Of a DNA stretch of 64,000 nucleotides, positions 29,247 to 30,794 are shown one piece after another. This DNA comes from Prolixibacteraceae bacterium (GTDB taxonomy: Bacteria; Bacteroidota; Bacteroidia; Bacteroidales; Prolixibacteraceae), in assembly GCA_019459525.1 (NCBI GenBank), contig JAIBEY010000033.1, positions 1 through 64,000 on the forward strand, in the 5' to 3' direction. The position numbers were made by a program, and so were the translations under genes. Below the pieces are notes generated by a model. The model was not told the DNA's origin. It did no database searches and saw only the letters and a program-made list of their open reading frames with translations. The number at the start of each line of letters is the position of its first letter. Positions within the stretch are counted from its first letter, which is position 1.

Positions 29247-29304
29247 AACAAGGGATTCCATCTCTTTTTGAAAGATGGAATCCCTTGTTTTTAGTGGAAT
29301 CCCT
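29247..29304. repeat. REP palindrome 1, upstream of the RAYT gene
   Basis: AACAAGGGATTCCATCT at 29247-29263 pairs perfectly over 17 bp with AGATGGAATCCCTTGTT at 29273-29289, followed by a third GTGGAATCCCTA half-site at 29293-29304. The core GGGATTCCAT recurs downstream of, and inside, the adjacent RAYT gene. Confidence 0.85.
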
Positions 29305-29324
29305 ATTTTTTGTATATTTAGCAC

Positions 29325-29960
29325 ATGCCCGCCATAAAAGTGATTACCCCAATTTTGGGTGACCGTTATTATCATATTTTCAATCGCGGAAATAATGGTC
29401 AGCATGTTTTCTTTACTGAGGAAAACTATAGGTACTTTTTACGTCTGTTCCATCAGTTTATTTATCCTTATGTCGATCTTTTGGCCTATAGTTTAATGCC
29501 AAATCATTTTCACTTCCTGATCAGAACCAAGGATTCCATTTCTTTTTTGAAAGATCGGATCCCTGGTTTTTCACAAGAGATGGAATCCCAAACCAATGAG
29601 GTTGAAATAGGCAAAATAATCAGCAATCAGTTCCGAAAGTTTTTTATTACCTATTCCATGGCCATCAACCTTCAGCAAAACAGAACAGGGAGCTTGTTCT
29701 CCAAAAACTTTAAGCGACTGGAAATTGAAGATGAAGAATATGTCAGGTACTTAGCTTTTTACATTCACTTCAATCCACAAAAACACGGGATTGCTGACGA
29801 TTTTCGGAAATACAGGTTTAGTTCGTGGGCAGCCTATAATTTGGTAAAATCAACTCATTTAAACCGGCAATTACTCATTGATCTTTTCCGAGGACTTGAT
29901 GAATTCATGAAATATCACCGGTATTTTCATGAAGAAAGAGACTTAAATTTGTTGGAATAG
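29325..29960 (+). CDS. REP-associated tyrosine transposase (RAYT, Y1/IS200-like)
   Basis: 211 residues. It has the HUH motif MPNHFHFLI, the N-terminal YYHIFNRGNNGQHVF of RAYTs, the catalytic tyrosine region FITYSMAIN and the C-terminal YIHFNPQKHG with KYRFSSWAAY. RAYTs are single-copy domesticated transposases linked to REP palindromes. REP copies sit upstream (29247-29304), downstream (29958-29995) and, unusually, inside the gene at 29525-29595, where a REP-like block is translated as KDSISFLKDRIPGFSQEMES. The TAG stop itself is the first part of the downstream REP. The gene is intact, so the REPs here may still be mobile. Confidence 0.88.
   Translation: MPAIKVITPILGDRYYHIFNRGNNGQHVFFTEENYRYFLRLFHQFIYPYVDLLAYSLMPNHFHFLIRTKDSISFLKDRIPGFSQEMESQTNEVEIGKIISNQFRKFFITYSMAINLQQNRTGSLFSKNFKRLEIEDEEYVRYLAFYIHFNPQKHGIADDFRKYRFSSWAAYNLVKSTHLNRQLLIDLFRGLDEFMKYHRYFHEERDLNLLE
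29525..29595 (+). repeat. REP-like sequence embedded in the RAYT reading frame
   Basis: AACCAAGGATTCCAT, then TTCTTTTTTGAAAGAT, GGATCCCTGGTTTTT and GATGGAATCCC match REP palindrome 1 (AACAAGGGATTCCAT, CTCTTTTTGAAAGAT, GGAATCCCTTGTTTTT, GTGGAATCCC) element by element, including loop and third half-site. The copy keeps the reading frame open and encodes a ~24-residue insert between the HUH motif and the catalytic tyrosine. Confidence 0.7.
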
Positions 29961-29995
29961 GGATTCCATCCTTCAAAAAAGGGATGGAATCCCTA
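29958..29995. repeat. REP palindrome 2, downstream of the RAYT gene
   Basis: TAGGGATTCCATCC at 29958-29971 pairs perfectly with GGATGGAATCCCTA at 29982-29995 around a TTCAAAAAAG loop. The TAG begins as the stop codon of the RAYT gene. On the other strand the same sequence supplies the final GIPSLF codons and stop of the hydrolase gene. Confidence 0.85.
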
Positions 29996-30794
29996 TAAAG
30001 CTCCAAACAGCATCCATGAAAAGCTGGGGCTGTTCGGCGTGTAGCCAGTGCCCGGCATCGGAGATTTGTATGATTTCGGCATCCGGATAAATGCGGAGAA
30101 TGGATGCAAAATCTTCAGGAAGAATATAATTGGAGTTGGCTCCTTTTAGGAACAATACCGGGTAATTTTTTATTGGCAGTCGGTCGTCGAACCAATGTGC
30201 ATTTACTCCTTTGATAATTTCGTCCAGGTTGTCGTATAGTACCGGGGCATTCATCCGCCATTCGTATTGGTGGTTTTCCTTGTTCCGGTGTACATTCTTC
30301 AGGAGAAACTGTACAATCTGAGTGCTGTCAATTCTTTCCTTCAAAAAATCTTCGACTTGTTTTCGCGATTCAATTCTGCTGAAATCAATTTCGAGCATCG
30401 CCCGCAGAATGTTGTTGTGCAAGTAATACTGGCTTTCGTCGTTCAGTAGAAAATAGTCTTTTGGGGCGATATCAACCACAATCAGTTTTTCGATCCGTTC
30501 GGGGTAATCGGCTGCAAAACACATGGCCGTTTTCCCTCCCATACTGTGCCCGACAACAATAGCCTTGTCAATTTTTTGCTGGTCAAAGAATTCGGCCAGA
30601 TCGTTCTTCATGGCTTCGTAACTGTGTTCTTCAGAATGTGGCGACCGTCCATGATTTCGCTGATCGATCAGGTAAACATGAAACCTGACAGCAAGTTTTT
30701 TTGCAACGGTTAACCAGTTGTCTGACGATCCGTAAAGTCCATGTACGATTACAATAGGAAATCCTTCGCCCTCTTCTCTGAAAAAAAGTTTCAT
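29973..30794 (-). CDS. Alpha/beta hydrolase (YbfF-like esterase)
   Basis: 273 residues. The fold is clear: FPIVIVHGLYGSSDNW (oxyanion hole), LIDQRNHGRSPHS, the nucleophile elbow VVGHSMGGKTA with Ser84, the acid region near YPVLFLKGANSNY and the catalytic His in ISDAGHWLHAEQP. It has no signal peptide, so it is cytoplasmic. Substrate unknown; small acyl esters are likely for the YbfF group. The last six residues (GIPSLF) are encoded by the REP palindrome, so the natural C-terminus was probably altered by REP insertion. The pdxJ gene starts 8 bases upstream of its start, suggesting one operon. Confidence 0.88.
   Translation of the reverse strand: MKLFFREEGEGFPIVIVHGLYGSSDNWLTVAKKLAVRFHVYLIDQRNHGRSPHSEEHSYEAMKNDLAEFFDQQKIDKAIVVGHSMGGKTAMCFAADYPERIEKLIVVDIAPKDYFLLNDESQYYLHNNILRAMLEIDFSRIESRKQVEDFLKERIDSTQIVQFLLKNVHRNKENHQYEWRMNAPVLYDNLDEIIKGVNAHWFDDRLPIKNYPVLFLKGANSNYILPEDFASILRIYPDAEIIQISDAGHWLHAEQPQLFMDAVWSFIGIPSLF

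Follow-up and report, generated by a model that had tools for sequence, protein, structure and literature searches.

Why would a transposase gene carry, within its own reading frame, a copy of the palindrome that flanks it? The question is raised by a RAYT gene in the window, the stretch of 64,000 nucleotides from a Prolixibacteraceae bacterium analyzed here, and it has two parts: whether the internal REP copy is conserved as DNA or as protein, and what could account for its presence in this place.

The RAYT gene of the window and its palindromes

The protein encoded by this gene combines an HUH motif, a single catalytic tyrosine in a Y-x-x-x-N-P context and an IS200-like fold, the features by which a RAYT is recognized. 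H61, H63, Y146, N150 and P151 are invariant across the 17 rows of alignment A1. The NCBIfam model of the REP-associated tyrosine transposases (NF047646) matches the protein with an E-value of 8.8e-14 and 51.6 bits, below the model cut-off of 80, and Pfam Y1_Tnp reaches 18.1 bits (cut-off 23). An AlphaFold2 model based on the 17-row alignment has a mean pLDDT of 87.3, and its top match among solved structures is 4er8, the E. coli RAYT-REP complex (E = 1.7e-7, TM 0.49/0.61). The poor internal stretch of this model comprises residues 71-90 (block pLDDT 58 and 53), between a strand at 61-68 and a helix at 87-117, and is overlapped by the internal REP and its half-site, which code for approximately residues 67-89. 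The loop holding the internal copy is variable, lies between the post-HUH strand and the next long helix, and is predicted by the model to be flexible.

Table 1. Palindromic elements and RAYT gene of the locus (window positions).
Feature	Position	Strand	Remarks
Upstream REP palindrome	29247..29289	+	17-bp perfect arms 29247-29263/29273-29289; 9-nt loop
Half-site after upstream REP	29294..29307	-	
RAYT / TnpA_REP-like Y1 HUH transposase gene	29325..29960	+	211 aa; HUH = NHFH, residues 60-63; Y146 in YIHFNP
Internal REP copy, in frame (KDSISFLKDRIP...)	29523..29571	+	Oriented as upstream copy
Internal half-site	29575..29589	-	Pairs with left arm of internal REP
Downstream REP palindrome	29957..29996	-	15-bp perfect arms 29957-29971/29982-29996; inverted relative to upstream copy; contains RAYT stop codon 29958-29960

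A sequence-only reading of this DNA had described palindromes on both sides of the gene, and both are present with perfect arms (17 bp upstream, 15 bp downstream; Table 1). It had also described a third REP copy with a half-site, matching the upstream REP and translated as part of the protein, after the HUH motif and before the catalytic tyrosine. This copy is real and its parts sit inside the open frame 29325-29960, but the match to the upstream REP is imperfect (73% identity across 49 nt) and its palindrome is degraded, with CGGATCCC as the right arm and a left arm for which the half-site is the better partner in single-stranded DNA folding. DNA folding z-scores were -6.8 for the upstream, -6.0 for the downstream and -2.6 for the internal palindrome, the last being equaled by 3 of 200 shuffles. 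The internal half-site may be what is left of another internal REP, one that is still complete in a close relative (L005).

Across the window, the GGGATTCCAT motif (at most one mismatch) occurs 8 times against 5.7 expected, a number that is uninformative alone, as 18 of 100 shuffles reach it; 7 of these 8 matches fall within the 750-bp RAYT locus. In the window genome as a whole, a search with profile R1 reported at least 3 sites at E<1e-9 among its best 150 candidates, all of them at the RAYT locus. The REP family of the window is 95% paired, with weak covariation. None of the three window palindromes has a GT[AG]G at its foot, and one GTGG is located at 29294, at the half-site. The downstream REP also serves as the end of two convergent genes: its left arm contains the TAG stop of the RAYT, and it supplies both the C-terminal residues (GIPSLF) and the stop codon of a minus-strand ORF at 29973-30794, which is hydrolase-like by eye only.

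Among the nearest relatives, the loop of L005 (77% identity) contains two complete REPs, and that of L006 (the same as L143, Prolixibacteraceae UBA6029, grouped in the genus of the window; 74% identity) contains one. A more distant gene, L007 (53% identity), carries a different REP core (GGATGTCATC), which occupies the corresponding position and is read in the same frame, together with the GATGTCATC core in its flanks; these differing cores indicate a joint change of internal copy and flanks between the window clade and L007. Finally, L008 (the same as L144, Prolixibacter denitrificans; 53% identity) has GGATGTCATC flanks and no insert, so that an empty site exists, as anticipated by the proposal to look for homologues lacking the insert; its flanks are nevertheless REP-like. 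The HUH motif and the catalytic tyrosine are 86 aa apart in the window protein and 69 aa apart in an insert-free relative. The insert is therefore located where the earlier reading placed it, but it amounts to 17 aa and not to the claimed 24 or so.

Two further RAYTs of the window genome (C15 and C50) bear different REP types. One of them (G000 C50:140979-141533) has REPs of an unrelated type, ACAGGTTT, both within the loop and downstream of the gene, and NF047646 has five weaker matches elsewhere in the same genome. Tandem arrangements were also observed: L031 and L033 each have, by eye, two different palindromes in tandem within the RAYT loop, a pair which in L031 is repeated in the same order downstream of the gene, and L142 (G636 C1:1209366-1213700) consists of two tandem RAYT genes with bodies 95% identical and the same internal palindrome.

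Prevalence and DNA-level conservation of the internal REP

The wider family was sampled as 251 loci, which include the best 80 of 556 confirmed stretches and 80 more regions fetched from longer lists of places. From these loci we took 230 non-redundant full-length genes, after removal of 13 partial, 12 identical, 3 near-identical and 1 long or N-bearing gene; three of the 230 had no locatable HUH motif or tyrosine, leaving a set of 227. An internal hairpin with a score of at least 11 was found in 102/230 genes, compared with 2.6% of 4600 synonymous-codon shuffles, although this proportion is not an unbiased frequency because the query profile was built mostly from REP-bearing genes (the 17 rows of A1, mostly with an internal REP by eye). 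Nearly all placeable strong hairpins (97 of 100) lie between the HUH motif and a point 45 residues before the tyrosine, an interval covering 17% of the protein. When coding sequences were compared with their own flanks (400 bp on either side of the gene, with any other RAYT masked), 72/230 genes scored at least 20, against 2.0% of 5750 comparisons with the flanks of other loci, and 67 of the 71 placeable matches were in the loop. The window gene passes this own-flank test (score 28) and fails the hairpin test. Earlier hairpin and flank tests on 132 genes were replaced by these, since tandem RAYTs in the flanks gave false matches.

An internal copy is present in about half of the family (112/227 genes); in a first set of relatives, it was present in 20 of 25 evaluable genes. 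The uniqueness of the in-gene REP that the earlier reading implied is thus lost, and in-frame REPs within tnpA_REP genes had in fact been reported (Quentin et al., 2018; PMC6006769). On a tree of the 227 genes, presence and absence require 36 parsimony changes, compared with a mean of 75.7 and a minimum of 66 after shuffling; on this tree, internal copies are inherited within clades, yet the 36 changes required imply that gain and loss are frequent. Taking into account that half of the family is without one, the internal copy is dispensable. As a control, we analyzed W-motif RAYTs of the same phylum (20 loci hand-picked among the top rows, 9 of them without a qualifying ORF by script): a hairpin of at least 11 was present in 0 of 11 readable genes (largest 9), and no own-flank match exceeded 12.5.

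The internal palindromes vary widely in sequence among relatives and occupy the same loop position. The CCTGACAGG palindrome is read in phase 2 (15 occurrences, LTGF...) and in phase 0 (7 occurrences, PDRV...), and this two-frame reading occurs among genes whose bodies are 78-84% identical. In residues that agree between genes, codon identity is 90-98% in the REP and 42-47% in the body (LTGF group, 629/698 vs 3548/8385 codons; PDRV group, 250/255 vs 1622/3454), a contrast that is inflated by the fact that both groups were picked for holding CCTG[AT]CAGG. The same measure in the adjoining loop is 0.40-0.51, and all independent pairs agree on the higher codon identity of the REP (7/7 in the LTGF and 4/4 in the PDRV group). 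In the window trio, which was not picked by motif, the sum of the three pairs gives 20/24 identical same-residue codons in the REP and 206/398 in the body, and the raw nucleotide identity of the REP (32, 27 and 29 of 36) is only slightly above that of the body (394, 386 and 405 of 525). The arms also covary. In a set of 15 internal copies, 14 of them distinct, every one of the 15 pairs is formed; double changes number 21, whereas shuffles predict 8.8 and slid registers yield no more than 5. This effect is inflated by the choice of hairpins holding CCTG[AT]CAGG for this set.

Since the palindrome is read in two frames and its codons are far more identical than those of the body, the match lies at the level of DNA. 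As compared here codon by codon, the internal REP is shown to be conserved as DNA, in either of two frames, and the reason for its retention appears to lie in the DNA sequence rather than in the protein. The earlier reading had named homologues with the same amino acids and unrelated nucleotides as the finding that would speak for protein conservation. The converse was found, namely similar nucleotides that give different amino acids in two frames, with REP codons more conserved than the rest of the gene.

Flanking and dispersed copies and the origin of the internal REP

The relation of the internal copy to the flanks of its gene was real but partial. The internal core matches the own flanks with a score of at least 14 in 53/92 genes (null 9.5%), with 36 genes matching on both sides and 39 on neither. 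Compared with the flanks of the nearest relative, the own flanks score higher in 49 cases, equal in 10 and lower in 23 (of 82), and among the 53 cases in which gene and relative have different cores, 38 give the higher score with the own flanks; yet mutually matching flanks are rarer in genes with an internal copy (49/104) than in those without (86/109). Flank hairpins were not associated with an internal copy (67/104 genes with a copy and 70/109 without), and a restriction of internal copies to REP-flanked genes was therefore dropped. Orientation is shared with the upstream copy in 30/40 informative cases; no polarity rule is claimed, given that the downstream copy shows no bias (29 against 22).

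Regarding the structure of the element, 55 of 86 distinct internal left arms form a hairpin of at least 4 bp by themselves (e.g., AAACCT GAC AGGTTT), compared with 9.1% of shuffled arms. Because the arms are often small palindromes, the unit looks like two inverted small REPs back to back, and we infer that it would represent a compact REPIN in which the two are fused.

Dispersed copies were searched for with profiles R1 and R2, which scored the best 150 candidates per genome, so that site counts are lower bounds. At E<1e-9, R1 reported at least 24 sites in G021 (5 at its RAYT) and at least 22 in G006 (3 at its RAYT), with at least 19 elsewhere in each. From 40 fetched regions, four of which (L274, L278, L293 and L297) held no site by a strict pattern, 44 REP sites away from RAYT loci were read, 43 in G006 and G021 and one in the window genome. 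For 41 of these, no ORF of at least 100 aa encloses the site; the other three are embedded in such ORFs, none of which has a Pfam match. In the two nearest relatives, the sampled REPs are thus shown to be rarely inside genes. In the R2 search (13 genomes, E<=0.001, best 150 candidates), 2 of the 13 genomes had all reported sites inside RAYT genes: both sites of G583 (97% complete) and the single one of G675 (66% complete). The remaining 11 had more sites, and an exact-pattern search of 8 of the 13 genomes gave the same sites for G583 and G675. It should be noted that in G583 a REP-like palindrome interrupted by Ns, which the R2 profile did not report, is located downstream of L064; this long palindrome lies about 13 nt after the gene and is broken by NN. 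As assemblies can break at such elements, the absence of copies in draft genomes needs care.

The explanation that we favor, and hold with about even confidence, is a putative REPtron (a RAYT gene flanked by a repeat family dispersed in the genome) whose RAYT gene bears one of its own REPs in frame, owing to a cis-biased REP insertion into a permissive loop, followed by retention as a putative cognate site. The RAYT would place REPs near its own gene by cis-biased insertion or replacement, insertions elsewhere in the gene would be purged, and the loop copy would be retained since the RAYT would bind its own REP. Such binding could dampen the expression of the RAYT, or could ensure that a cognate REP stays with the gene after the loss of flanking or dispersed copies. 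The earlier reading had raised the possibility that a transposase with its own substrate in frame would cut its own gene or regulate itself. Retention may serve autoregulation or seeding, or may merely mirror frequent renewal. In favor of this explanation we count the loop position of the internal hairpins, their matches to the own flanks, the two frames, the codon identity and covariation, the rarity of embedded REPs elsewhere, the two genomes with R2 sites reported only in RAYT genes and the W-motif control; for the cis bias we count the suggestion that REPs multiplied near a newly arrived RAYT in Marinomonas (PMC8266576). Against it we count the 39/92 hairpin genes without a flank match, the fewer matching flanks of copy-bearing genes, the half of the family without a copy, the frequent gains and losses on the tree, the choice of the codon and covariation groups by motif or hairpin and the degraded copy of the window itself.

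A second explanation, possible but in our estimate rather unlikely, is that REPs land randomly, survive only in the flexible loop and then decay. This is the published reading: Quentin et al. (2018; PMC6006769) view in-gene REPs of subclass 2.4 as tolerated insertions that may affect the protein little. A passive origin would fit the predicted flexibility of the loop, the half of the family without a copy, the frequent gains and losses and the degradation of the window copy. However, given that 41/44 REP sites elsewhere are not embedded in ORFs, the RAYT gene is a much more frequent target than the remaining genes; the codons of the REP have hardly changed in genes whose other silent sites diverged; and in 2/13 genomes the internal copies are the only ones reported among the best 150 candidates, so that nothing detected there could re-seed them.

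Quite unlikely, in our view, is a role of the palindrome in RNA, in which the RAYT transcript would form a hairpin that impedes translation or targets the transcript for degradation, with RAYT binding playing no part. The covarying arms, which remain paired in coding sequence (in a set picked as hairpins), are consistent with it, and REP hairpins have been suggested to down-regulate RAYTs (PMC3733652). A pure hairpin, in contrast, need not resemble the flanking REPs, as 53/92 do, and the codon conservation exceeds what pairing demands (in groups picked by motif). That the peptide is what is conserved, the DNA match being a mere consequence, is very improbable: a peptide is common to one clade (LTGFENLSG; KDSI..KDGI), but the frame switch already contradicts this account, as the same palindrome type gives LTGFENLSG or PDRVLNPVR in genes with bodies 78-84% identical, even in L054 and L064, which belong to one genome and are 81% identical. 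An assembly or binning artifact has a negligible probability: many loci come from metagenome bins, some labeled as other phyla and open to binning errors (e.g., Methylobacter L153 and Roseilinea L149), and the flank palindrome of L064 is broken by NN, but the element is also present in records not labeled as bins (Adhaeribacter soli L148, Niabella ginsengisoli L221 and Hydrotalea flava L215).

Extending the idea of insertion followed by retention, we tentatively suggest, while considering it doubtful, that this RAYT family keeps its own recognition element in the coding sequence as a built-in seed and sensor. The internal copy would lock the specificity of the RAYT to a REP sequence if flanks and dispersed copies disappear or the gene travels by itself, and would be swapped for a new REP type, in whichever frame is open, when specificity changes. 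A putative cognate REP locked in the coding sequence would make RAYT specificity readable from the gene alone. The co-evolution of RAYTs and REPs and the use of RAYTs to their hosts are open questions of the field, and a family with a REP in the loop offers a clean test bed for RAYT regulation or REP spread.

Comparison with known systems

Subclass assignments are discussed here against the motifs given in the available part of Quentin et al. (2018; PMC6006769). In TnpA_REP subclass 2.4 (Bertels RAYT group 4), REPs are inserted within tnpA_REP genes with the frame kept, generally between HuH and Y. The present family shares with this subclass the in-frame REP, the variable beta3-alphaC region that holds it and the occurrence in Bacteroidetes, and the NHFH of the window protein fits its NH[IFV]H. 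In contrast, the WQ motif of subclass 2.4 is replaced (F in 211/227 family genes and W in none by regex; FS in the window), the SS tail motif that subclass 2.4 lacks in Table 1 of that article is present ([WFYI][ST]S in 191/227; SS in the window), and the GT[AG]G foot of its REPs is found in 6/97 cores, which equals shuffles (6.4%). The key motifs of TnpA_Y1 subclass 2.1 (Bertels group 1), NH[YF]H, FQ and an SS tail motif, resemble those of the family, although that subclass, with a median length of 238 aa, is reported there as REP-free. Compared by published motifs alone, the family leans towards subclass 2.1. Subclass 2.6, another Bacteroidetes group, has WQ and NH[LIV]H where the window has FS and NHFH.

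The E. coli TnpA_REP/RAYT (subclass 2.2; PDB 4ER8) is similar in fold, in catalytic layout and in the REPs that flank the gene, whereas it is described in the same source with DHLH, WE and GTAG-footed REPs. Rickettsia palindromic elements (RPE) and other intragenic REPs are likewise palindromic repeats in frame in protein genes; in the examples given in the accessible part of PMC3733652, however, the hosts are unrelated genes and not the gene of the own transposase. Quentin et al. call in-gene REPs unique to subclass 2.4, and also state that some 2.7/2.8 genes carry one.

The case of the window, a REP in frame within a tnpA_REP gene, belongs to this already reported kind. DNA-level constraint, frame switching and sole copies are mentioned neither in the available part of Quentin et al. 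(2018; PMC6006769) nor in the opening lines of abstracts of the RAYT papers found by literature searches. By this comparison, what is new here is the DNA-level constraint on the internal REP, its switching between frames and the genomes in which a REP type was detected solely within RAYT genes.
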